Source: Candidatus Lindowiibacteriota bacterium (GTDB lineage Bacteria > Lindowbacteria > 2-12-FULL-62-27). From it: a stretch of DNA of 22,030 nucleotides. Under the pieces are notes generated by a model. It saw only the letters and a program-made list of their open reading frames with translations. It was not told the origin of the DNA and did not search any database. The number at the start of each line of letters is the position of its first letter. Position 1 is the first letter of the stretch. Both the position numbers and the translations under genes were made by a program. Shown here in pieces: positions 1-12,270 of this stretch. The stretch covers positions 1-22,030 of the forward strand of contig JAHFCY010000023.1 in assembly GCA_023249255.1 (NCBI GenBank), written 5' to 3'.

Positions 1-1134
1 TATCGCCGATGCATGTGTAGTCTCGCCGGCTTTTGAGGGATCCGATGTCGCCATGACCACATCGCCCGTATTGATGCCCACCCGGATGGACAAATGGATG
101 TTGTGATAGGCCATGTCGCGGACGGTTTTCTGCATCTCAATACCTGCCGATACCGCATCCAGCGCCGCTTCCGCCGCGGGGCCGTCAAAGAGTCCCATGA
201 TCGCGTCCCCGATGAATTTGTCGATCGATCCCCGGTGATTCTGGACGATGTTCGTCATGTGATCGAAATATTCGTTCAACATCCGCACGATGGCCGCGGG
301 TTCCAGTCCTTCGGACAATGGAGTAAAGGCACAGATGTCGGTGAAGATGACGGTCACCCGTTTTTTTTGCGCGATGACGCCGGACGCTCCCAGTTCCGCT
401 CGGCGGTGGGCCTCTTTCCAGGCGCTTTCGGAAACATAGGGAGATAACTCCTGTTTGGCGCGCAATCCCCGGACCATCTGGTTGAAAGTTTGAGCCAGCC
501 GGCCAAGTTCGTCTTTTCGGGTCTCCGGCACATGGATATTCATTTCGCCGCTCTCGACTTTTTCCATCCCGTGGATCACGCTGTACACCGGCCGGGTGAA
601 AAAGTAAGCCATGAGAATGGAGATACAGATACCGGTGGCGGCGAGAATGGTTCCGAAGATGAGGACATCCCGCCGGATATTCTGAATGAGGACGGCAATC
701 CAATTTTCATAGCCGACCACCAAACTCCCGATGTTTCGGGCGCCTGACCCTCCCGGTCCCTCTATTCCCGTAATCGTCACCGGCTGTTCCACGGAAAGGG
801 CGCGCGTGGGGTCCGCGTGCGGCCTCAGGAAAAAGTCGATCTGTCCGCCGTCGGAAGATTTGAAGAGGACGTAAAGGATATCCGGATCACGCGCCATCAG
901 GGCGTCGATCTGCTCCTTGGTGGCGTCGCGTCGAATGATTTTTCGGGATAAAAAATCCGGCGCATGGTTCAATCCCATGATACTGCTGACCGCGAGAGTC
1001 CGAGCTTGAAAACTGGCGACGTGCGCCTGTTTCAGCGCTCGATATTCCTGGATTCCGTAGGTCGTCACCACGCAGCCGACCAGAATAACGGTGAAGACGG
1101 CGAGCTGACCCCAGAAGGGAAGCCGGAGACTCAC
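1..1134 (-). CDS. HAMP-domain class III adenylate cyclase, membrane-bound (partial, frameshifted)
   Basis: This is a membrane adenylate cyclase that would make cAMP in the cytoplasm in response to a periplasmic input. Reading from the GTG at 1134: TM1 at about residues 8-28, an extracytoplasmic region of about 125 residues, TM2 at about 157-179, a HAMP linker at about 180-232, then the cyclase domain. The two metal-binding aspartates are D266 (FTDICAFT) and D310 (KFIGDAIM), and K306 is the usual adenine-recognising lysine. The GTG overlaps the upstream stop by 4 nt (GTGA) and has a GGAGGAG ribosome site. After residue 361 the frame breaks: the next frame reads GDIGSLKSRRDYTCIGD, the standard cyclase continuation, so one C appears to be missing from the CC at 51-52. 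This is either a sequencing error or a true frameshift. The 3' end lies outside the window. The cyclase assignment is firm; intactness is not. Confidence 0.88.
   Translation of the reverse strand, partial: MSLRLPFWGQLAVFTVILVGCVVTTYGIQEYRALKQAHVASFQARTLAVSSIMGLNHAPDFLSRKIIRRDATKEQIDALMARDPDILYVLFKSSDGGQIDFFLRPHADPTRALSVEQPVTITGIEGPGGSGARNIGSLVVGYENWIAVLIQNIRRDVLIFGTILAATGICISILMAYFFTRPVYSVIHGMEKVESGEMNIHVPETRKDELGRLAQTFNQMVRGLRAKQELSPYVSESAWKEAHRRAELGASGVIAQKKRVTVIFTDICAFTPLSEGLEPAAIVRMLNEYFDHMTNIVQNHRGSIDKFIGDAIMGLFDGPAAEAALDAVSAGIEMQKTVRDMAYHNIHLSIRVGINTGDVVMATSDPSKAGETTHASAI
48..54 (-). other. Apparent 1-nt deletion (frameshift) in the cyclase gene
   Basis: The codons up to ATG (54-52) give INTGDVVM, a normal class III cyclase motif. 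The same frame then gives nonsense-like residues. Shifting by one base gives a 17-residue stretch that fits the conserved G-x-IGS-...-DYTxIGD segment of the family. Adding one C to the CC at 51-52 restores the frame. The sequence shows the break; its cause cannot be decided here. Confidence 0.8.
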
Positions 1135-2057
1135 TTCAGCATCTCCTCCGCCGCCAGCGCGGACTGGGCCAGATTCTCGTAGATATGAATGTCGGCGCGG
1201 ACATAGGATCCTTCCCGGCCGCATTTTTCCAGTCCCTTCATGACCTGATCCCCGGCGGTGTCCGAGCGGATATCGAGAAGCGCGTCCATCAAAAGCTGGG
1301 CCAGTTTCTCGCGCTCCTTCACGAAATCCTCCAGAAACGCCAGCCCCGATCCGGGAATGTCCGCGCTGATCGCGAGGCTCGTCAGCTGATCCAGCTTGTC
1401 CGGGTCTGTATTGAATACATCATGGCCGGCATTCGAACCGTCCTGCGACGCATAGACGGCGCCCGCGTGAACTTTCCGGTCGTAGACGTCCCAGACTACT
1501 TGATGATGGTCGCCGGAAAACGCGGGAATGTAATCGGACGCGGAAAGCCCGGCGGCCCGCAGCATCAAGGACGGAAATAGAAATCCGGATGCGGATTCCT
1601 TGTCGACGAACGCGATCCGTTTGCCGCGCAGGTCGGCAAGAGAGAGAAATCCCCCGTCCTTGCGGGTGATAATCGCGCTCCGGTAGGTCGACCGGCCCCG
1701 GATCACCTCAATGAGCACCATGCGATAGGGCGCGATCTTGACGGCCCGGACGTATTGGAGCGGGCCGACGATCACGACATCGAATTCTTTTTTCTGCATT
1801 TTGGTCAGGAGGTCCGTGTAGCCGTCGGCGAATACCATTTCGACCGGGCAGCCCAATTTCTGTTCAAGGTAATTGAGCCACGGGCAGTATTCGCGGTAGG
1901 TTCTCAATGAATTCAGGCCCGACGGCCCGCCGATCAAGATGGGATGGATCCTCGACCGTTCCAGGATTTTGTATTCCGGTTGGTCCACCGGAGTACCTGT
2001 CAGGCCGCAGCCAGTCAAAAGAAAAATAAGAGGGAACAGAAAATAACCCCGCCTCAC
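1131..2057 (-). CDS. PhnD-like periplasmic binding lipoprotein
   Basis: This is a substrate-binding protein of the phosphate/phosphite/phosphonate (PhnD-like) type. The 308-residue product begins with a lipoprotein signal (LLTGC, lipidated Cys17). The body has typical family segments: a domain-1 stretch around EMVFADGYTDLLTKMQ, the motif FDVVIVGPLQY, and a hinge region LADLRGKRIAFVDKESASGFLFP. It starts with GTG, 7 nt after the stop of the upstream binding-protein gene, and its own stop overlaps the cyclase start by 4 nt, so the three genes are probably one operon. No ABC permease or ATPase gene is adjacent. I therefore infer that it may serve as a sensor input to the downstream membrane cyclase rather than in uptake. 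The ligand is unknown. The family call is strong, the sensory role is inference. Confidence 0.85.
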   Translation of the reverse strand: MRRGYFLFPLIFLLTGCGLTGTPVDQPEYKILERSRIHPILIGGPSGLNSLRTYREYCPWLNYLEQKLGCPVEMVFADGYTDLLTKMQKKEFDVVIVGPLQYVRAVKIAPYRMVLIEVIRGRSTYRSAIITRKDGGFLSLADLRGKRIAFVDKESASGFLFPSLMLRAAGLSASDYIPAFSGDHHQVVWDVYDRKVHAGAVYASQDGSNAGHDVFNTDPDKLDQLTSLAISADIPGSGLAFLEDFVKEREKLAQLLMDALLDIRSDTAGDQVMKGLEKCGREGSYVRADIHIYENLAQSALAAEEMLK

Positions 2058-2064
2058 GGAAGAA

Positions 2065-3333
2065 TCACCAGGACTTCAGTTCGGCGCGGTAACGCGCAAT
2101 TTCCTCCTCGGCCGCTTTTTGGGCGGCCGACAGAGCCTGTTCTGCGGAATATTTGTCGTCGAGGAATGGGCGGAACGCCATGTCCTGGAGGGGCCGCCAG
2201 ACGGCATAGAGTTCCGGGTCGGTCGGCATCGCCACCCCGACGGACGCTTGGTCGGCGAACGCCAGGAGATGTTTATTTTTCAAAATCACCGGGTCCTCAT
2301 AAATCGATTTCAGGCTTGGAATTCTCGCCGTCTCGATTGCGAACCGGCGTTGTCCCGCCGCGCGGCCCAAATACCGGATCAGATCGCGCGAGATCGGCCT
2401 GTCGCCCTTGCCCGTCAGAAATATCGCTTTCACGCCGATCAGCGGCGGCGCATACCGCCCGTTCGGCATTTTCGGCAGACGCGTGACGGCGAAATCTATT
2501 TTTGATTCCAGAAACTTCGGAATGTCCCATGGGCCGCCCAGATAATAGGCGGCCTTCCCCGATACAAACAATTCCGCCGCCCGCGTCTGCCGGCCGGTGG
2601 AACGAGGCGGGACGATCAGGTATTCATCCTGAAACGCTTTGACGGATTTCAGCCATCGGATTTTGTCCGGCGAGTTAAGCATCGGCGATCCGTCCTCGCG
2701 AAGCAGGGGTTCCCCCGCAGCCAGGAGCCAGGGCATGTTGAGATAGGGACTGGTCAGATCGTAAACAAGACCCCATTCGTCCCGATCGGGATGCGTCAGG
2801 CTTTGGGAGGATTTGATCCAGTCCGAAAACTTCGCGGGAACCGATTTCACAAGGTTCCGGTTGTAAAAAAGCGCGATGCATTCGTAGGAAATCGGAAGTG
2901 CGTAAAGGTGGTCTTTGTATTTGACGGCTTCGTAAGTATACGAAAGAAATTCATCAGGGGATTCGATCGGAAGATTGTCGATCGGGAGGATTAAATTTTT
3001 TTCGGCGAAATTGCCTATCCAGTCGTTGATTCCTGTGAAAACATCCGGCCCGTTCCCGCCCCCGCCCCTCCGGAGCGCGTCCTCGATTTGCCTGGCAAAG
3101 GTATCAAATGCAAGCGCGGTCAACTCGACCCGAACTCCGGGATGCCCCTTTTCAAAATCGGCAACTTCGTTTCTTAATATCTCTAACTCCCGACCCTCCC
3201 AGTGAGTCCACAACTGGATGGGCGCCACGCCGCGAGATTCCGGCGTCCCGCATCCGGCCGATATCGCGGCCAGCCACATCAATAGGCCGGCCGGCCACCA
3301 CCGTCCCCGCCTGCCGATCAAAATGTCCCGCAC
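2065..3333 (-). CDS. Extracellular solute-binding lipoprotein (family 1, sugar ABC type)
   Basis: This resembles maltose/sugar-type solute-binding proteins: IQLWTHWEGRELEILRNEVADFEKGHPGVRVEL at the N-terminus, the segment GPDVFTGINDWIGNFAEKNLI, and later AAELFVSGKAAYYLGGPWDIP. From GTG 3333 it has a basic n-region, a hydrophobic stretch and a lipobox (ISAGC, Cys28). An in-frame TTG at 3369 would lengthen it by 12 residues. I prefer GTG because TTGATA at 3369-3364 reads as a -35 box with N17 to TACAAG, and the GTG has a nearby GGGAG. It is the first gene of the operon with the PhnD-like protein and the HAMP cyclase. No permease or ATPase genes are nearby, so it may be an orphan binding protein working with the cyclase. 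Its ligand cannot be told from sequence. Confidence 0.87.
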   Translation of the reverse strand: MRDILIGRRGRWWPAGLLMWLAAISAGCGTPESRGVAPIQLWTHWEGRELEILRNEVADFEKGHPGVRVELTALAFDTFARQIEDALRRGGGGNGPDVFTGINDWIGNFAEKNLILPIDNLPIESPDEFLSYTYEAVKYKDHLYALPISYECIALFYNRNLVKSVPAKFSDWIKSSQSLTHPDRDEWGLVYDLTSPYLNMPWLLAAGEPLLREDGSPMLNSPDKIRWLKSVKAFQDEYLIVPPRSTGRQTRAAELFVSGKAAYYLGGPWDIPKFLESKIDFAVTRLPKMPNGRYAPPLIGVKAIFLTGKGDRPISRDLIRYLGRAAGQRRFAIETARIPSLKSIYEDPVILKNKHLLAFADQASVGVAMPTDPELYAVWRPLQDMAFRPFLDDKYSAEQALSAAQKAAEEEIARYRAELKSW

Positions 3334-3340
3334 AAACTCC

Positions 3341-3369
3341 CTTGTATCAAACGCCGTCCCGCGTATCAA
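3341..3369 (-). promoter_or_regulatory. Putative sigma70-like promoter of the binding-protein/cyclase operon
   Basis: TTGATA (3369-3364), a 17-nt spacer and TACAAG (3346-3341) lie on the minus strand. The -10 box ends 7 nt before the GTG at 3333, so transcription would start at or next to the start codon. The match is moderate, and the GGGAG just before the GTG could alternatively be a closely spaced ribosome site. Confidence 0.4.
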
Positions 3370-3414
3370 CTTTTATCGAGTCAATGGGGACGGCGATGGG
3401 GCAAATCAGCGAAG

Positions 3415-3468
3415 TTTAGCCACGTGCCCCTGCTGGCCATTCGGAACGGATGGCGACTTGGGTGGTGG
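3415..3468 (+). repeat. 54-nt dispersed repeat, copy 1
   Basis: This matches 6367-6420 at 52 of 54 positions in the same orientation. It starts TTTAGCCACGTG and ends near GACTTGGGTGG. It contains an 8-bp hairpin, GCCATTCG-GAA-CGGATGGC (one T-G wobble). Both copies sit a few tens of bases upstream of a minus-strand gene start (47 nt from the alternative TTG at 3369, 82 nt from the preferred GTG at 3333). Confidence 0.9.
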
Positions 3469-3530
3469 AAACCACGGATGAATCCAATATACGATGATTA
3501 TCGACTGCGGTTGAAAGCGGTCGATTCGAC

Positions 3531-3552
3531 CTGTCTGAGACGTCTCAAACAG
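3531..3552. repeat. 22-nt near-palindrome, left flank of the nucleotidyltransferase cassette
   Basis: It is centred on GAGACGTCTC, with 10 of 11 base pairs matching. The segment 3533-3556 matches 4688-4711 at 21 of 24 positions in the same orientation, and the two copies enclose the two-gene cassette. It could be an operator, a mobile-element end or a REP-like repeat; the sequence does not decide. Confidence 0.7.
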
Positions 3553-3673
3553 TTGGATGCTTCAGCTGAATGTTCCGGCTTTGAAAAATCACCCTTCAAC
3601 CCCAAATCTGTATCCTGAGCTTTGCCCCTATCTTTGATTGGATACGGTCATGCAAAATCAAAATTCCTAACAT

Positions 3674-4216
3674 TTAACGCAGACATTTTTTGATGAAATC
3701 CAGATCCTGCACATCCTTCGGTTCTTTCCGCGCACGAATCGCGATCTCTTTCATGGTTTTGAGATGGTTCAGGCTGGCTACCTTGATGATTGTGGTCCTG
3801 TCGAGCTTTTTGTTTGTGGCGGAGGCAAGGAGGTCGGATGCTTTCAGAGGGAAATCCATCAGGATATCTATTTTTAATTCAATATCCGGATTCCAGAAAA
3901 AAACAGTGTCCGGTTCGTCCATTAAGATCTTCGAGGCGGCAATGTTGATGTTGTCGAGCCAGCTCAGAGGCCGACGCCGCTTGTCGAGTCTGGACACGTA
4001 AAAACATCCGGCCCCGTGCATCGCGCCAACCAGCAATTTTGCCGCTTCCAGGTTCTCCGGACGGACGGCCACCAGATCACAGTCGAACGTCACTCGCTCG
4101 GACCCGAACAAGATCAGCGCCAGACCGCCGACCAGGACCGGTTCGAACCCGGCCGCGCGAAGGTTCCTGACGACCTTGATCAGCTTTCGGCTTTCCGGCA
4201 TCAATCCCGCATTCAT
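3674..4216 (-). CDS. Nucleotidyltransferase-fold protein (AbiEii/MNT-like), putative toxin
   Basis: The 180-residue protein has the nucleotidyltransferase signature: VGGLALILFGSERVTFDCDL (GG/GS followed by D-x-D) early on, then ELKIDIL with a further acidic residue. This fits DNA polymerase beta-like nucleotidyltransferases, including AbiEii-type toxins. Such enzymes transfer nucleotides to RNA or proteins; the target here is unknown. I start it at ATG 4216, which overlaps the stop of the preceding gene as ATGA; an upstream in-frame start at 4246 would add 10 residues. Translational coupling with the small upstream gene suggests a functional pair, as in type II/IV-like toxin-antitoxin systems. 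The fold call is good; the toxin role is inferred from family and layout. Confidence 0.8.
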   Translation of the reverse strand: MNAGLMPESRKLIKVVRNLRAAGFEPVLVGGLALILFGSERVTFDCDLVAVRPENLEAAKLLVGAMHGAGCFYVSRLDKRRRPLSWLDNINIAASKILMDEPDTVFFWNPDIELKIDILMDFPLKASDLLASATNKKLDRTTIIKVASLNHLKTMKEIAIRARKEPKDVQDLDFIKKCLR

Positions 4217-4611
4217 GATGAACCATTCACCCGCTTTAGATGCCAAACCAGCCGGACGTGGCGGAAATTTCGGTTCAAAAGGTCGATCGGTTCGCGACGG
4301 GCGGCAATCTTCGGCGCCGCACGGATAATCCCTTTCTGAATTTCCTCGTGACTTTTGCGCGCCGCGCGAAGCAGGGCTTCAAAAACCCGGCGCGCGGCGA
4401 TGCGATTCCGAATCGAAACGGGTTTGGCCGAATCCGCCGGACCGATGTACGTGAATCTCACCTTGCCGCCATCCCGGCGCGCCAAGTACGCATACCGGCG
4501 GGCCCGCAAAGTCTTTTCGGAAATACTGCCCCTGGGCAGGGCATTGATGGCTTTCCGATACCGCACAATCAGTCCGGCCAACCGGTCATATTCCCGCTCA
4601 AGCAGGTTCAT
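4213..4611 (-). CDS. Small basic protein paired with the nucleotidyltransferase, putative antitoxin (DUF6788-like)
   Basis: This protein has 132 residues from ATG 4611, chosen because GGGAGGG lies 8 nt upstream; an in-frame start at 4647 lacks this. An N-terminal helix (MNLLEREYDRLAGLIVRYRK) is followed by LPRGSISEKTLRARRYAYLARRDGG and KVRFTYIG. To me this resembles DUF6788-type proteins, which are commonly found beside nucleotidyltransferase genes. The C-terminal part is rich in Arg and Lys and may be helical. Its stop overlaps the nucleotidyltransferase start by 4 nt and it is driven by a consensus promoter. The role as antitoxin or partner is inference. The family name is from memory and should be tested with a profile search. 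Confidence 0.65.
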   Translation of the reverse strand: MNLLEREYDRLAGLIVRYRKAINALPRGSISEKTLRARRYAYLARRDGGKVRFTYIGPADSAKPVSIRNRIAARRVFEALLRAARKSHEEIQKGIIRAAPKIAARREPIDLLNRNFRHVRLVWHLKRVNGSS

Positions 4612-4647
4612 GGCTGTGTCCCTCCCAATGGGTTCATTACCTAACAA

Positions 4648-4677
4648 ATTATATTATATTAGTTAACCATCTGTCAA
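4648..4677 (-). promoter_or_regulatory. Consensus sigma70 promoter of the nucleotidyltransferase cassette
   Basis: On the minus strand there is a perfect TTGACA (4677-4672), an 18-nt spacer and a perfect TATAAT (4653-4648). A second TATAAT lies at 4658-4653 but at poor spacing. The AT-rich block stands out from the GC-rich surroundings. Transcription would start about 30 nt before the ATG at 4611. Confidence 0.8.
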
Positions 4678-4687
4678 ATACCGTACC

Positions 4688-4705
4688 GTCTGAGACGTCC
4701 CAGAC
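4688..4705. repeat. 18-nt near-palindrome, right flank of the nucleotidyltransferase cassette
   Basis: GTCTGAGACGTCCCAGAC has 8 of 9 pairs matching and is part of the 24-nt repeat shared with 3533-3556. It lies 11 nt upstream of the cassette's -35 box and 7 nt downstream of the end of the second cyclase gene. It could bind a dimeric regulator, mark an insertion end, or form a hairpin in cyclase mRNA. No T-run follows, so a classic terminator is unlikely. Confidence 0.65.
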
Positions 4706-4712
4706 AGTCGGG

Positions 4713-6329
4713 CTAAAAAAAGGTGATTTCCCAAATGGAAACCCCCCATTCTGTGGCGCGTTTTTTGCAGTTCACGCGCAGGAATTTCGCGGTCAGGGGT
4801 CCGGAAAAATTTATTTTTTTATCGTATTCCGCCCGGCCGGAAGAAATATCGGCAACCGTTTGCCAATCCACCTTGTTCATGGATACATCGATGGAATATT
4901 CCCGGGCGATAGCCGTCTCCCAGAAAATCGACACGCCGTTCAAGGTTCGCGGCTTATCAAACTGGATGATCAACCACTGGTTGTCGCTCCATGCGGAACT
5001 CCACCGTGTGTTTCTCCTGCCGTCCATCGCCATCTCAGCCGGAAATGCGTCTTCTTGAGATGAGGCAAATGCCTTCAGAGTATCTTTGAGAGTATCTTTC
5101 GAGGGTATCAGAGACATCGCCTTCGTCGCACGGTCCACCTGGCCGCCGGCGCCCGGGAATTTCTGGATGACGGTTTGAAATTCCGTCTTTGCTTTTTCAT
5201 ATTCTTTTTTCGCCAGATGGGATTCCCCGATCAGATAATGAATTTCGGCATGCAGTCCCCAATCTTCGACCGGAACTTTCTGCGACATCTCCCAAAGAAC
5301 TTCCTGGCCTTCCGATACCCGGCCGAGATCAATCAGGGTCTTCGCTTCCGCCGCTTTCGACCAGCGAGCATCGATCGATGCCGGATAATACTCCACGACG
5401 GCTCGATACGCGGCCATTTTTTTATCTCCGGGAGGCAGATCATCCGCATAGCGTTTTTGTTCCACCGCCGAATTCATGCGTGGGATGCTGATTTTAACGC
5501 GTCCTTTTTTTGGCGGCGCGGGCGTCGACAGGGACGGCGCCGGCCCGGGAGCGGGACTGGACGCATCGTTTGATGGAGTAGGTATCGGCGGCTCCCGTTC
5601 AGGCGCTTTGGCGACCTCCGGGGTTCGGTATATCTGAGAAAGGCCTTGAGAAGTGTCCGCAGGAGGCGGGGGTTCACCCAACTGCGTCGTAATCTCCGTG
5701 AGTTGATGATGGATGCGCGGCAGATATAAGCTAAGAACAACCGCGATTAAAATGATGGAACCCGCGGTGCTTCCTCTCCAAACCCATTTGTAAATGAGAG
5801 AACGCTTTTTTCTCCCCACCCGGTACAGTGAAATTTTATCCGCTATGCCTTTGAATCGTTTGGTGCCCGTATATTCGTATGGGACCTCACCTTTGGTCAT
5901 GGACAGGCGAGTCGCTTCGGTGAAAACAATCTCGTTCTTGCCGGCGACCTTCTCCAACCTGGCGACCAGGTTGACGGAATCGCCGAAAATGTCGGCGCCA
6001 TCCTCTTTCACAACCACCTCGCCCGTATTGATGGCGATCTTGATGTAAAACGCCTTTTCCGGAAATTCCTTGTTGAGACTCGATAAACTGGCCTGAATTT
6101 CGACGCCGGATTTCAACGCGTCAGTCGAACTCTTAAACGTCAGAAGATACGCGTCCCCGATATTCTTGACGATGGTTCCGCCGTGGGAGCTTATCGCCCC
6201 GGTTACGAGATCCTTGAAGGTTTGTTGAAGTTTGGAAATCTCCTCCCGCGACATTCTGGCAACCATGTCCGTGTACCCGCAAATGTCCACCAGCATGATG
6301 GCAAGGTAATCGCTCTTTATGTTCGACAT
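4713..6329 (-). CDS. Adenylate cyclase with TM, TPR-like and C-terminal discoidin (F5/8C) domains
   Basis: This is a 538-residue class III cyclase with an unusual layout. The catalytic domain is N-terminal and cytoplasmic (about 5-170): metal aspartates D15 (VDICGYT) and D59 (KNIGDAY), adenine-site K55 and D113, and transition-state N120/R124 (SVNLVARLE). One TM helix at about 187-204 follows. Then come a Pro/Ala/Ser-rich linker (about 225-280), TPR-like helices (about 300-410, including ESHLAKKEYEKAKTEFQTVIQKFPG) and a discoidin/F5-8C-type domain (about 415-538: AMDGRRNTRWSS, NQWLIIQFDKP, FLRVNCKKRATEWGVSIWEI). The domain order implies that an extracytoplasmic carbohydrate- or surface-binding module controls cAMP synthesis. 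All key catalytic residues are present, so it should be active. ATG 6329 is favoured by the TATAAT placed 6 nt before it. Confidence 0.9.
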   Translation of the reverse strand: MSNIKSDYLAIMLVDICGYTDMVARMSREEISKLQQTFKDLVTGAISSHGGTIVKNIGDAYLLTFKSSTDALKSGVEIQASLSSLNKEFPEKAFYIKIAINTGEVVVKEDGADIFGDSVNLVARLEKVAGKNEIVFTEATRLSMTKGEVPYEYTGTKRFKGIADKISLYRVGRKKRSLIYKWVWRGSTAGSIILIAVVLSLYLPRIHHQLTEITTQLGEPPPPADTSQGLSQIYRTPEVAKAPEREPPIPTPSNDASSPAPGPAPSLSTPAPPKKGRVKISIPRMNSAVEQKRYADDLPPGDKKMAAYRAVVEYYPASIDARWSKAAEAKTLIDLGRVSEGQEVLWEMSQKVPVEDWGLHAEIHYLIGESHLAKKEYEKAKTEFQTVIQKFPGAGGQVDRATKAMSLIPSKDTLKDTLKAFASSQEDAFPAEMAMDGRRNTRWSSAWSDNQWLIIQFDKPRTLNGVSIFWETAIAREYSIDVSMNKVDWQTVADISSGRAEYDKKINFSGPLTAKFLRVNCKKRATEWGVSIWEITFF

Positions 6330-6335
6330 GGGGCC

Positions 6336-6364
6336 ATTATACTAAGAAAAGACAATAGACAACA
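6336..6364 (-). promoter_or_regulatory. Putative promoter of the discoidin-domain cyclase
   Basis: A perfect TATAAT (6341-6336) ends 6 nt before the ATG at 6329, leaving room for essentially no leader, and no ribosome site is visible. The -35 region is weak: TTGTCT with a 15-nt spacer, or TGTTGT with 17. A leaderless transcript is the simplest reading. Confidence 0.5.
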
Positions 6365-6366
6365 CA

Positions 6367-6420
6367 TTTAGCCACGTGACCCTGCTGGCCATTCGGAACG
6401 GATGGCGACTTGGGTGGAGG
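6367..6420 (+). repeat. 54-nt dispersed repeat, copy 2
   Basis: This is the second copy of the repeat at 3415-3468, with two mismatches. It lies 38 nt upstream of the cyclase start at 6329. The similarity ends abruptly on both sides. Confidence 0.9.
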
Positions 6421-6629
6421 AGGCGGCTCGAAGGCTCACTGCTGTCCGGTTAAGAAAATCGGAAGGATAACTGGCCGAGCATTTGTTTTGAGCAGCGTTC
6501 TTTCGGAACGTCATTCCAGATAGAATCCAATGACTTGCAGGAGAAGAGAGCGACCGTCAGAGCCGCCATAATTGCAGGAATTCCCCAACCCAGTCGAGCC
6601 TGAAACTTCACGAGGGTTATCAAGAGACA
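6421..6629. other. Intergenic stretch, no firm gene
   Basis: A minus-strand reading frame at 6569-6450 would give a 39-residue peptide starting MAALTVALFSC, which looks like a short hydrophobic leader with a cysteine. It lacks a good ribosome site and known homologues. Nothing else is recognisable. Confidence 0.4.
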
Positions 6630-6936
6630 CTCCTCGGGAGGGACTCGAACCCCCGACCCGGCGGTTACGTTCTGACTCCGCTTTCACGGAGAGTCGGACT
6701 TTCTCTTTACCCTTCTACTTGTGGCAGATAGGGTAGCGGGTGTAAAGTCTCTGCACTTGCCCTCCCGCCTGCGGCGGGATGCTAGCTCAGGATTGCCTTG
6801 GCCGGATCCGACTTTAGGTTTCCCTGACTTAGCCCGCTTGTCATCCCGGTATTTCGACCGGGAGCTGCTAATTCGGCATGAATTTCTCTCATGCCTTCGG
6901 CACAGCCGCCTGCTCTACCGACTGAGCTACCGAGGA
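6630..6936 (-). tRNA. tRNA-Asn(GUU), interrupted by a group I intron
   Basis: The exons are 6936-6902 and 6667-6630. Joined, they form a complete 73-nt tRNA. The acceptor TCCTCGG pairs perfectly with CCGAGGA and the discriminator is G. The D-arm is GCTC/GAGC, the anticodon stem GGCGG/CCGCC with loop CTGTTAA, and the T-arm carries TTCGAGT. The anticodon is GTT, with the intron between positions 35 and 36, inside the anticodon. CCA is not encoded. The gene lies 56 nt downstream of phhB on the same strand and could be co-transcribed with recR-phhB. A weak promoter-like TTGCGG-N17-TTTACA also lies just upstream. The splice point follows from the mature tRNA plus the rule that group I introns follow a U and end in G. 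Confidence 0.92.
6668..6901 (-). ncRNA. Group I self-splicing intron (234 nt, IC3-like) in tRNA-Asn
   Basis: Read on the minus strand, the insert has group I core elements similar to those of cyanobacterial tRNA-Leu introns. A Q-like GGCAATCCTGAGC is present. The R-like GTGCAGAGACTTT and S-like AAAGAGAAAGTCC form P7 (GACTTT/AAAGTC). P8 is TACCCT/AGGGTA. P2 is GGCATGA/TCATGCC, P5 is CCCGGT/ACCGGG, P4 is AGCTC/GAGCT, and the P9 hairpin pairs GACTC-CCG with CGGAGTC. The 5' exon ends in U and the intron ends in G. There is no room for a homing endonuclease. An extra hairpin (6763-6779) looks like a peripheral extension. The P1 guide pairing is ambiguous; UGU with GCA is one option, but it competes with P2. 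Confidence 0.88.
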
Positions 6937-6992: not shown

Positions 6993-7280
6993 TCAAGACG
7001 CGACGGCGTCGATTTTGTCCGCAAGATCAAAATCCTTCGCGGTCAACGCGCCGGCGCTGTGCGTGGAAATCGAAATCTCGACGCGTTTGTACGCGAAGAT
7101 TCGCGCGTCCGGATGATGGTCCAACTCTTGTGCAATCGGCACGATTCGCCGGATGAATTCGACCGCCTCCACGAATCCTTTCAGAACAAATGTTTTTTTG
7201 ATTGCGATGCCGTCCCGCGTCCATCCGGTCAGTGACCTCAGTCGCGTCTCGATTTCCGCGTCCGACAGTTTGCCGTTCAT
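6993..7280 (-). CDS. phhB: Pterin-4a-carbinolamine dehydratase
   Basis: This 95-residue protein has the usual length and fold signature of the PCD/DCoH family. That enzyme dehydrates 4a-hydroxytetrahydrobiopterin and so recycles the pterin cofactor after aromatic hydroxylation. The motif ELDHHPD holds the catalytic histidine pair, and the C-terminal part (YKRVEISISTHSAGALTAKDFDLADKI) matches the family closely. Its ATG overlaps the recR stop by 4 nt (ATGA), so the two are translationally coupled. No phenylalanine hydroxylase is in the window, so in this organism the enzyme may have another pterin role, possibly with molybdopterin. The family assignment is secure. Confidence 0.92.
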   Translation of the reverse strand: MNGKLSDAEIETRLRSLTGWTRDGIAIKKTFVLKGFVEAVEFIRRIVPIAQELDHHPDARIFAYKRVEISISTHSAGALTAKDFDLADKIDAVAS

Positions 7281-7888
7281 CCCTGCTCCTGTCCGGCTCT
7301 CATGTCCTGGCGGTTCAGGATCGCGCGGGTCACGGTCATCGCGTCCATGTACTCAAGCGATCCGCCGACAGGGATGCCGGCGCTGATGCGCGTGATTTTC
7401 ACCCCGCAGTCGCGGAGCTTGTCCATGAGATAGTGCGCCGTGACTTCTCCCTCGGCTGTCGGGACCGTGCCGAGGATGACTTCGCGGACCTGCCCGGCCT
7501 TGAGGCGCTCCCGCAGTTCTCCGATCCGAAGTTTGTCCGGTCCGATCCGCTGCATGGGCGACAGAAGTCCGCCGAGGACGTGATAGCGGCCTTTGAACAT
7601 GCCGGTTTCCTCGACGGCCAGTAAATCCCGGATGTCGGCGACGACGAGAATGACGCCGGTGTCGCGGTTCGGATTTTTGCAGATCGCGCAGTCGTCTCCG
7701 TCCGCGATCGAAAAACAGGTCCGGCAGGTCTGCAGGCGGCGTTTGCCGTCCGTGAGAGCCGCCGCAAACACGTTGACGTCCTCCGGCGTCATCGAAAACA
7801 GGACGTGATGAGCCAGCCGCAGGGCGGTCTTGGGTCCGACCCCCGGCAGTTTGTTGAACTGTTCAGCGAGATGCGTCAGGAGTTTCAT
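7277..7888 (-). CDS. recR: Recombination mediator protein RecR
   Basis: RecR acts with RecF/RecO to load RecA at gaps. The 203-residue product has the helix-hairpin-helix LPGVGPKTALRLAHH (14-28), a four-cysteine zinc site (C55, C58, C67, C70), the Toprim domain (about 79-150, EETGMFKGRYHVLGGLLSP) and the C-terminal ATP-like-fold motif GIPVGGSLEYMD. The ATG at 7888 matches the normal RecR N-terminus; a longer TTG start at 7948 is less likely. One oddity: the first Toprim acidic residue, usually Glu in a VVE motif, is Ala here (ILVVADIRDLLAVEE). RecR is usually linked to dnaX and ybaB, but here it precedes phhB and tRNA-Asn. A 24-codon ORF ends 4 nt before it. Confidence 0.95.
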   Translation of the reverse strand: MKLLTHLAEQFNKLPGVGPKTALRLAHHVLFSMTPEDVNVFAAALTDGKRRLQTCRTCFSIADGDDCAICKNPNRDTGVILVVADIRDLLAVEETGMFKGRYHVLGGLLSPMQRIGPDKLRIGELRERLKAGQVREVILGTVPTAEGEVTAHYLMDKLRDCGVKITRISAGIPVGGSLEYMDAMTVTRAILNRQDMRAGQEQG

Positions 7889-7892
7889 GCGT

Positions 7893-7967
7893 TCAGTGTA
7901 CCTCGCCCGCAAATGAAATTTCAGCTCTCCTGCGGATCTCTGCGTCAACGATCAGCCCATTAATCAT
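7893..7967 (-). CDS. Possible 24-residue leader peptide upstream of recR
   Basis: An ATG at 7967 lies 6 nt after a TAATCT -10 box. It opens a short frame (MINGLIVDAEIRRRAEISFAGEVH) whose stop lies 4 nt before the recR ATG. This arrangement would couple translation of recR to a leaderless start. The peptide has no recognisable family. It may equally be a remnant of the truncated genes next door. Low confidence. Confidence 0.3.
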   Translation of the reverse strand: MINGLIVDAEIRRRAEISFAGEVH

Positions 7968-9435: not shown

Positions 9436-12270
9436 TTACTTCCAGCGGGGATCGGGCCGGGTGAGCGGGCTGCTCTTTCGGATGTACTGTTCCACCGCCG
9501 ACCGAATGCGAATGTTCGTGTATTTTTTCGATTTGGCGTGGGAGAGGGCGGCATAATTGGCCCGCTCCAAAAGATAGTCGTTGACCGCAAGCCTGTACTG
9601 TCGCTGCGCCGCAACGGGTTCTCCGCGTTCGCCGCTCAACGTCACCGTTGGTGAATCTTCGGAAGTCACGGGCGGCGTGATTTTGATCTGCATGCCCGAC
9701 ACATAGAGAAATCGCTTTGGCTGGGCCGCTTCCTGAAAAAACGCCGCAAGATCCGCGCCGGTCATCTCAAGGACCACAAGTTCGTTATCGTAGGGCAATG
9801 CCTCCTCGATGATGCCGGAGGTAATGGCTCCCTTCGGAAAATTTCCGCAGAGGCCGGTCGGATTATAAACGCCGATGTCCGCCTCGGCGGCGGCGCGGGC
9901 GGCGTCCGCGACCACGTTTCCGAGTCCGCCCTCCTCCCACGGATAAACCCAGAGCAGGTTGTCCTTTGTTGCGCCAAAATCTTCGGTGCCATCCGGTTCG
10001 TCTTTCCGGAGAGCGTCGTAGTCGACGAACAAGGACGATGGACCGCCGTCATTCAACTGCGCCCGAAGCGCTCCTTCCGTGTCGAACGCGAGAAAGGTGT
10101 ATGACCTTTCGCCGGGAGTCGGAACATACGTCCAAGGGCCGCCCCACGGGGATTCCGGTAAGCGGGTCAGTTTCATTTTTTGCAATAATTCCGGGAGGGT
10201 CGGAGGACGCCGGGAATCAATCAGGTCCCGGGCCTTTCTCAACCAAAGTGTGGCCGCGCGGCCCTGGGGGGTCGCCTCGTCGCCCATTCCGGATTCGTCC
10301 CACGCCTCGACCTGTCTTTCCGCAAAGTCTCCGGCGTGATCATTGACGACATGGGCGATCCGCGCTACATCGGGACGGGACGACCCCGCCGGAAGTTCGG
10401 CATACCAGGTGTTTCGGCTACCTGCGGGTTTTTCAAATTTGAATTCGCCTGACGATTCCCAGCGGACGATGACGCAATACACCTCGCCTTGGATGATTCC
10501 GGGGCCGGTGATCACCAAGGTTCCGGGTTGAAACTCAATCGTGTCGTTGGCGGAAATATCGAAAATTCTCTGGAGCCGGGAAATAAATTTGACCCGGCCA
10601 AGCGGCGGCGCGGGCGCGGAGTCGGAAATCTCAAGCGCGGCCGAAACACGCGGCGCCACCGTCCATGCATCGCCCTGCCTGCAGGCAAACCGCAATTCGA
10701 TGCGGCCGGCCGGCCAGCTTTCCAAAACCCGCCAGAATCCATTATGCAAGGGATCGTCGGGCGCCCGCTCGGGATTCCAGATATGGCAAATGCCGTCGTT
10801 AAACATCACAAGGAATTTATAATCGTCTGCCGGATCAATCTGCGTGACCTCGATGCGCTCACCCGGCGAGGCTTTCCGGGATCGAAGATGAAACCCTGCC
10901 CGTCCGTCGCGCAGAAAATATCCGTCGACGACGCAGAGGTCGATAGCCGCCGATTCAACGCCCCGCTGGACGACTTTCAATCCGGCCCGCCCTTCCTCCG
11001 CTTCCTTTGGAATACGGCAAACCATCCGGAATTCATACGGGCGACCCCACGCCTCATGCGGCGCAATCCACTCGAGACGCCGGATGGTTCCACGCTGATT
11101 GAACTGAACTTCCACGTCTTGCGGAGAAATGGAGTTTTCCGTCGGAATGAGTTGTCGGACTCGAATTTCCGTCCACATTCCCGGAGAAACCATCGTCCGC
11201 GCATATTTGATCACGGGCGGCGCCGGTCGCGGAACGATCTGGATGGGAATGACGTCGTCTTCAACCCGTATCGCGGCCGCGCCATTTCGCAAATCGGGCG
11301 GCAGAAACACCGTATAGGTCCATGCCAATTCGGTCTCCGTGTGCAGGCTGTATTCGACACGAAGCGTCACATAGTCGTATTTTTTTCCTGCCTGCTCGAT
11401 CCAGACTGTCGGCGTCCAGCGCCGGTGCGCGAAATGCCTCGGACTGGCCAATTCGATCGTCTGCCCGGGCATCCCCTCCGTCCGGTCCGCGGTCCATTTG
11501 TCGTGCGTCGGAGCATGCATTCGAAAGTCATTGAAATGGATGAGCGCGGTATCCAGTTCACTCACGCGGCGGCGGATGTCGTCCATGTCGGGATTCGTCC
11601 TGCTCTCGTTGGAATTTGTCGCGGCCCGCGGTCTTCGTATCGCCGCCATCCGATCGCAGTTGTTGAAATTTGCTTCGAAGGGAACCCCGCACCATCGGCG
11701 GTTGAAATCGGGATAGACTTGATAGACCGCGTCCGGATTTCTGTTGAATTCCCCGATCAACCCCGCAGCGTCGGTGTCAACCGGCCAGCCCATGTATTCG
11801 TCGAGTTGCAATTGCAGTTCGAGCCGACGCGCCGGGTTCAGCGATGTTGCCCCGCGCGTCAGGGCCTGTTCGGCCAATTCAAATTCCCCGAGGTACGTCA
11901 GGAGGTACGTCAGGTCGATCCAGCCGGCGGGAGCAGGCGGCGATCCCGCGAATGACGACAGATCAGCGGTCGAGTCGCCCGGCGGGATCATCGCCGCAGT
12001 CCGGTACGCCCACACGCGGGCGGACAGCCGCGTGATCACTGACGCATTGACCGATTCATCCTTCTCGATTGATTCGAGCAGAACGTCATGCAGGACTGCC
12101 ATGTCTTGCGCGTGGGTCCGCGACGCTTTTCTCATGTGGTTTAGCACTCCTTGTACATCTCTCCCCATCGCTTTTGCGGAACGCGCAATGTCTCCGACGG
12201 CCGGATCGCGGAGGGACGAGAAAAGAAAGGCCACGGCGGCAATTCCCAGAAGAGGAATACGGGATTTCAT
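9436..12270 (-). CDS. Large secreted protein with a C-terminal 5'-nucleotidase domain but no catalytic domain
   Basis: The product has 944 residues from ATG 12270 and starts with a signal peptide (MKSRIPLLGIAAVAFLFSSL). Residues about 780-925 match the 5'-nucleotidase C-terminal (substrate-binding) domain: GLGNVVADAARAAAEADIGVYNP, ITSGIIEEALPYDNELVVLEMTGADL, RFLYVSGMQIKI and YRLAVNDYLL. The metallophosphatase domain that normally precedes it is absent. Instead there are about 750 residues I do not recognise: a helical region, then probable beta-sandwich segments with many Trp, Pro and Arg. It may bind nucleotides or glycan-like ligands outside the cell without hydrolysing them; this is inference. 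A longer in-frame start at 12306 lies inside the repeat and promoter and is rejected. A 12-bp exact tandem duplication lies at 11891-11914. Confidence 0.8.
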   Translation of the reverse strand: MKSRIPLLGIAAVAFLFSSLRDPAVGDIARSAKAMGRDVQGVLNHMRKASRTHAQDMAVLHDVLLESIEKDESVNASVITRLSARVWAYRTAAMIPPGDSTADLSSFAGSPPAPAGWIDLTYLLTYLGEFELAEQALTRGATSLNPARRLELQLQLDEYMGWPVDTDAAGLIGEFNRNPDAVYQVYPDFNRRWCGVPFEANFNNCDRMAAIRRPRAATNSNESRTNPDMDDIRRRVSELDTALIHFNDFRMHAPTHDKWTADRTEGMPGQTIELASPRHFAHRRWTPTVWIEQAGKKYDYVTLRVEYSLHTETELAWTYTVFLPPDLRNGAAAIRVEDDVIPIQIVPRPAPPVIKYARTMVSPGMWTEIRVRQLIPTENSISPQDVEVQFNQRGTIRRLEWIAPHEAWGRPYEFRMVCRIPKEAEEGRAGLKVVQRGVESAAIDLCVVDGYFLRDGRAGFHLRSRKASPGERIEVTQIDPADDYKFLVMFNDGICHIWNPERAPDDPLHNGFWRVLESWPAGRIELRFACRQGDAWTVAPRVSAALEISDSAPAPPLGRVKFISRLQRIFDISANDTIEFQPGTLVITGPGIIQGEVYCVIVRWESSGEFKFEKPAGSRNTWYAELPAGSSRPDVARIAHVVNDHAGDFAERQVEAWDESGMGDEATPQGRAATLWLRKARDLIDSRRPPTLPELLQKMKLTRLPESPWGGPWTYVPTPGERSYTFLAFDTEGALRAQLNDGGPSSLFVDYDALRKDEPDGTEDFGATKDNLLWVYPWEEGGLGNVVADAARAAAEADIGVYNPTGLCGNFPKGAITSGIIEEALPYDNELVVLEMTGADLAAFFQEAAQPKRFLYVSGMQIKITPPVTSEDSPTVTLSGERGEPVAAQRQYRLAVNDYLLERANYAALSHAKSKKYTNIRIRSAVEQYIRKSSPLTRPDPRWK

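Follow-up and report, generated by a model that had tools for sequence, protein, structure and literature searches.

An intron within the anticodon of tRNA-Asn(GUU)

The stretch of DNA analysed here, referred to below as the window, comprises 22,030 nt of contig JAHFCY010000023.1 from a Candidatus Lindowiibacteriota bacterium (assembly GCA_023249255.1). On its minus strand lies a tRNA-Asn(GUU) gene that is split between U35 and U36 of the anticodon by a 234-nt group I intron (Table 1). ARAGORN missed this tRNA when run without introns, calling a tRNA-Pro as the sole tRNA of the window, and reported tRNA-Asn(gtt) with an intron of 234 nt when introns were allowed. Alignment of a 311-nt query with the uninterrupted tRNA-Asn gene of a genome from the same family (G001) breaks exactly at query positions 39|274, which in window coordinates are 6902|6901 and 6668|6667. 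We then moved each end of the intron by up to 2 nt, and out of the 25 resulting junctions only the unshifted one (0/0) restored tRNA-Asn(GUU); the joined exons form a perfect cloverleaf. Since the G001 alignment breaks at U35|U36 and shifted ends never restore tRNA-Asn, we assign the insertion to this bond. An earlier note on this DNA had given the same coordinates, had proposed that a perfect tRNA-Asn emerges only once a 234-nt insert is removed, and had put the insertion between positions 35 and 36; the alignment and the junction test bear out each of these points, with the gene on the minus strand.

Table 1. Features of the split tRNA-Asn(GUU) locus and its surroundings, in window coordinates
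Feature	Position	Strand	Evidence
5' exon, tRNA-Asn(GUU) nucleotides 1-35	6902-6936	-	alignment to intronless G001 gene; junction test
Group I intron, 234 nt, omega-G at 6668	6668-6901	-	RF00028, 60.2 bits; ARAGORN with introns; junction test
3' exon, tRNA-Asn nucleotides 36-73, CCA not encoded	6630-6667	-	G001 alignment; junction test
P1 5' strand, exon GGCUGU	6902-6907	-	CUGU/GCAG pairs constant in 27/27 sequences
Internal guide sequence GCAGCU, P1 3' strand	6863-6868	-	comparison with relatives
Hairpin in P1 loop (P1 extension), GGCAUGA...UUCAUGCC	6875-6895	-	sequence and fold; missing in most relatives
P2 hairpin, CCCGGU/ACCGGG	6845-6862	-	both-side changes in 6/6 pairs
P3	5' strand 6833-6837, 3' strand 6736-6740	-	100% of cells paired; double changes in 5/5 pairs
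P4	6823-6827 with 6787-6791 (within 6787-6827)	-	100% of cells paired; double changes in 4/5 pairs
P5	6816-6818 with 6796-6798	-	
P6	6784-6785 with 6756-6757 (within 6756-6785)	-	98% of cells paired; double changes
P6a hairpin	6764-6778	-	variable among relatives
P7, GACUU/AAGUC	5' strand 6745-6749, 3' strand 6697-6701	-	100% paired; one double-change pair (A-U to U-A)
P8 hairpin, UACCCU/AGGGUA	6708-6735	-	86% of cells paired; double changes in 5/6 pairs
P9 hairpin, GAAA tetraloop	6676-6691	-	alignment; loop visible in alignment
Pterin-4a-carbinolamine dehydratase, upstream neighbour	6993-7280	-	same order beside G001 intronless tRNA-Asn
recR, upstream neighbour	7277-7948	-	same order beside G001 intronless tRNA-Asn
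Part of ~9.4-kb island downstream of tRNA gene	1-6629	.	G001 synteny; contig overlap; Pfam

The intron has a group I core

The insert matches the Rfam group I covariance model RF00028 along the whole model (window 6917-6675, minus strand; 60.2 bits, E 3e-13, model positions 1-253 of 253), above the Rfam cut-off of 50 bits. This was the check that the earlier note had proposed, and its reading of a group I intron is confirmed by this match, by homology to at least 26 inserts at the same site and by covariation. Helices P2, P4, P5, P7, P8 and P9, which it had listed, were all found, and P3, P6 and P6a in addition; P1, which it had left unnamed, has its 3' strand at the guide. The fold lies 4 SD below dinucleotide shuffles.

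P1 is made of six pairs between the exon GGCUGU and the intron GCAGCU and ends at the splice site in the U.G pair expected there, in which U35 stands opposite the G of GCAGCU at 6868. This position is UG in 27 of the 27 aligned sequences, and the guide core GCAGC (6864-6868) is invariant in the same alignment. Rfam draws P1 with the exon paired to the intron directly beside the splice site; we rejected this pairing in view of the conserved GCAGC guide, which lies 33 nt into the intron. P10, between exon UAA and intron UUA, could form three pairs in the window; among the relatives, the nearest ones from Omnitrophota hosts have 4-5 such pairs, and in about half of all relatives P10 is undetectable. 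The last intron nucleotide, a G, is invariant in all 27 rows. There is no long open reading frame within the intron (the longest open stretch is 71 codons), and no homing endonuclease ORF was found in it. The small size, P2, the GAAA loop of P9 and the tRNA host are compatible with subgroup IC3.

The proposed structure was examined over 49 named pairs in an alignment of 27 sequences, the window intron and 26 others. Pairs are formed in 89.2% of the cells of this alignment, compared with 68.1% after shuffling of the 3' letters. Sliding the partners drops pairing to 34-48% of cells; the tested structure was read from the window sequence and so has some advantage over the slid versions, and the double changes elsewhere are independent of that. 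Cells changed on both sides number 283 versus 87 in shuffles, and P3, P4 and P7 are paired in every one of the 27 sequences. The P1 pairs beside the splice site show no covariation among the Asn introns, because the Asn exon is nearly constant.

The same bond is interrupted in distant bacteria and in viral contigs

The earlier note had called for a database search for other tRNA-Asn introns. We scanned one genome per bacterial and archaeal species for a tRNA-Asn split at U35|U36 by about 200-260 nt. Among the matches listed, 98 of 119 genome stretches proved to be tandem tRNA genes rather than introns. With the tandem pairs removed, there are at least 26 same-bond split tRNA-Asn genes besides that of the window (at least 21 genome loci and 5 viral contigs). 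All 27 inserts can be aligned as a single intron family that shows strong covariation, and the RF00028 cut-off is passed by 21 of the 26, many of which score higher than the insert of the window, up to 96 bits.

Hosts among the matches listed include Omnitrophota (five), Nitrospira and Nitrospirota, Elusimicrobia, Deltaproteobacteria, Clostridia and a MAG labelled Planctomycetales, as well as Patescibacteria such as Buchananbacteria, Kaiserbacteria, Berkelbacteria, Sungiibacteriota, Saccharibacteria and Paceibacterota. A stricter pattern, in which the guide was required, was found in at least 9 of 285 genomes of the phylum Omnitrophota and in at least 3 of 379 of the phylum Patescibacteria. 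The host and site, which had been described as unusual, are so against the literature that we searched (see Discussion); they are not unique, as they recur in several phyla.

In five IMG/VR viral contigs (L202, L203, L207, L211 and L212) an intron of this family interrupts tRNA-Asn at U35|U36. Three of these five introns lie above the RF00028 cut-off, and genes resembling those of phage tails and baseplates occur on L203. These contigs deserve attention because a review of 2014 places all phage group I introns known by then in protein-coding genes (PMC3984707). Nucleotide searches gave no match of the locus in plasmids and none of the intron in named phages.

Several further RF00028 matches appeared in other kinds of host gene. 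Two (L244 and L233, in Nitrospira and Sungiibacteriota genomes) lie, judging by their 3' ends, apparently in tmRNA-like genes, and two others (L236 on contig C11 of G001, and L258 in Elusimicrobia) are flanked by apparent 23S rRNA sequences. A Berkelbacteria genome (G079) holds four matches (L230, L249, L252 and L253), one with an apparent tRNA-Phe host, so that the intron load per genome can be high.

Origin of the intron

The genome that carries the split tRNA-Asn also has a group I intron in tRNA-Leu(UAA), on contig C169 (RF00028 38.8 bits). In a maximum-likelihood tree built from 50 introns over 258 columns, the tRNA-Asn intron of Omnitrophota REEB252 comes out as sister to the window intron (L167; support 100/97), and the resident tRNA-Leu(UAA) intron groups with its own sister in another genome, G002 (100/100). 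This tree has long branches and 17 weak forks. Explaining the Asn label on it takes 8 changes, compared with 17 when labels are shuffled; the Asn label is clustered, and a single origin is not thereby established. Descent of the window intron from the resident tRNA-Leu intron was rejected, as the tree groups it with the Asn introns. Given that the Asn intron did not arise by copying of the Leu intron, and that the orthologous tRNA-Asn gene of G001 is uninterrupted, the simplest reading is that the intron was gained by transfer into the window lineage, loss in G001 being the alternative. The intron belongs to a family that is specific to the tRNA-Asn site and occurs in several phyla, and its arrival in this lineage was probably independent of that of the resident tRNA-Leu intron.

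A putative island integrated at the same tRNA gene

In G001, recR, the pterin dehydratase gene, tRNA-Asn and the genes downstream of it are contiguous. In the genome of the window these downstream genes were found on contig C272, which holds at 11771-11817 (L078) an uninterrupted 47-bp tRNA-Asn 3' half, which begins at the anticodon arm, extends to the 3' end and matches both the joined exons and the G001 gene without a difference. Window positions 1-170 correspond to C272:14582-14752 at 99.4% identity; the two contigs therefore appear to join, leaving an insert of about 9.4 kb between the tRNA copies. The genes of this insert include, by Pfam, a cyclase, discoidin-domain proteins and solute-binding proteins. 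A direct repeat from the anticodon arm to the tRNA 3' end thus flanks both of its ends, as elements that integrate into tRNA genes usually leave behind, and we interpret the insert as a putative island integrated at tRNA-Asn. Since no integrase was found among the island genes tested with Pfam, it would be at most a remnant, or dependent on an integrase elsewhere. The window also contains a 55-bp repeat of 96% identity (3415-3469 and 6367-6421), with two weaker copies on contigs C357 and C308.

The tRNA-Leu(UAA) locus on C169 mirrors this arrangement. The gene, with its group I intron at 34|35 (L080 11180-11772), lies 211 bp from an uninterrupted 5' half, and an integrase gene (L080 7781-8887) lies 2.3 kb from the locus. 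These two cases hint at an interplay of introns with integration, without establishing it. No general association of Asn introns with displaced tRNA halves is supported, such halves having been seen only in the genome of the window: the pattern used detected a displaced tRNA 3' half in 0 of the 21 other Asn-intron genomes.

One could imagine that the intron was carried in by the island, the two forming a single mobile unit. This would fit two observations: the intron is in the complete gene and absent from the 3' half at the distal end of the island, and the one further tRNA intron detected in this genome likewise sits near a half gene and an integrase. The island itself, however, is without an integrase, none of the 21 other genomes has a detectable displaced half, and the order of events is ambiguous, because a crossover within the 47 bp could fall on either side of the intron bond. 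We regard joint arrival as rather unlikely.

Predicted splicing and its probable importance to the host

We are highly confident that the locus carries a site-specific group I intron of tRNA-Asn that would remove itself and restore the GUU anticodon. As predicted from the sequence, the exon end GGCUGU of the precursor RNA would pair with the internal guide GCAGCU to form P1. A guanosine bound in P7, the guanosine-binding helix of group I introns, would attack after U35, and the freed U35 would in turn attack the bond that follows the terminal G (6668), so that U35 is ligated to U36. P10, formed by exon UAA and the intron UUA beside the guide, may help to hold the 3' exon.

The own-genome tRNAs were listed from RF00005 matches and ARAGORN in an assembly that is 88.7% complete. 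No uninterrupted tRNA-Asn was found in it, only a 3' half besides the split gene, and the earlier statement that the gene could not work without splicing is right for what is the only complete tRNA-Asn found in this 88.7%-complete assembly. Of the 21 other host genomes, two have an uninterrupted tRNA-Asn; the same pattern detected none in the remaining 19. Splicing is probably essential to the host, because its assembly is without an uninterrupted gene, a missing copy being possible at this completeness; taken together with the 19 other genomes, this means that selection should keep the intron active.

A degenerate intron in a pseudogene, with a missing intact tRNA-Asn serving the cell, would be compatible with the incompleteness of the assembly and with an RF00028 score below that of many relatives. 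Yet the exons form a perfect cloverleaf, P3, P4 and P7 are fully paired, and the site-specific family retains its catalytic core in distant hosts that yielded no uninterrupted copy, so that we consider such decay very improbable. That the split is a tandem tRNA gene pair, as were most raw matches of the scan among those listed, or an assembly artefact, is at odds with the lack of a second tRNA in an insert that begins and ends inside the anticodon and with the recognition and removal of tandem cases, and is already refuted by homologous inserts at the same bond in independent genomes.

Discussion

The element described here is of a known kind, and its host tRNA and insertion bond are, provisionally, new relative to the open-access literature that we searched. 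The tRNA hosts of group I introns named in it are Leu(UAA), fMet, Ile2 and Arg(TCT) (PMC8450103, PMC4853749, PMC5733544), and short inserts in cyanobacterial Arg, Gly and Lys tRNAs have been termed group I introns (PMC5733544). A paper on the completion of metagenome genomes mentions some tRNAs with group I introns, and Asn is unnamed in the part consulted (PMC8172020). We found no report of a group I intron in a bacterial tRNA-Asn in this literature; an earlier description elsewhere is possible.

Like the window intron, the bacterial and plastid introns of tRNA-Leu(UAA) (34|35) are small, ORF-less and located in the anticodon, share the same core helices, and have a guide that pairs with the exon and a U.G at the 5' splice site. 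The window intron differs from them in residing in another tRNA, in being cut one nucleotide further 3' and in a guide (GCAGC) that matches tRNA-Asn. The introns of tRNA-Ile(CAU) in Azoarcus and of tRNA-fMet in cyanobacteria also interrupt the anticodon loop of an essential tRNA and have a similar small size and core, whereas the host tRNA and the insertion bond are different. Self-splicing in vitro is established for the Azoarcus intron, as is its structure. The tRNA-Ile(CAU) and tRNA-fMet cases are named in PMC8450103 and reviewed in PMC3984707; in neither paper did we find tRNA-Asn among the hosts. Closest is the Omnitrophota tRNA-Asn(GUU) intron L167, the tree sister, which shares the bond and the architecture; unlike the window intron it is without the long P1 extension, and its genome is without a displaced tRNA half by the pattern used.

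These results extend the host range of bacterial group I introns to an asparagine tRNA and to a new insertion bond. They also have a practical side: tRNA finders that do not allow for long introns miss such genes, and genomes of these groups can consequently appear to lack tRNA-Asn. The intron also overlaps an integration site; this association is unusual but ambiguous, and it makes it possible to test whether introns and integrases are connected. Speculatively, U35|U36 of tRNA-Asn may be a standing, undescribed home of an intron family that moves horizontally among phyla and phages; since tRNA integrases target the anticodon loop, where this site lies, an intron there may even shield the gene from integrating elements or lock them in. 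We put this whole reading forward only tentatively and think it rather unlikely. One site-specific family is common to distant uncultured bacteria and phage sequences, and if the split genes are truly the only copies, these introns must splice for the cell to read its Asn codons.
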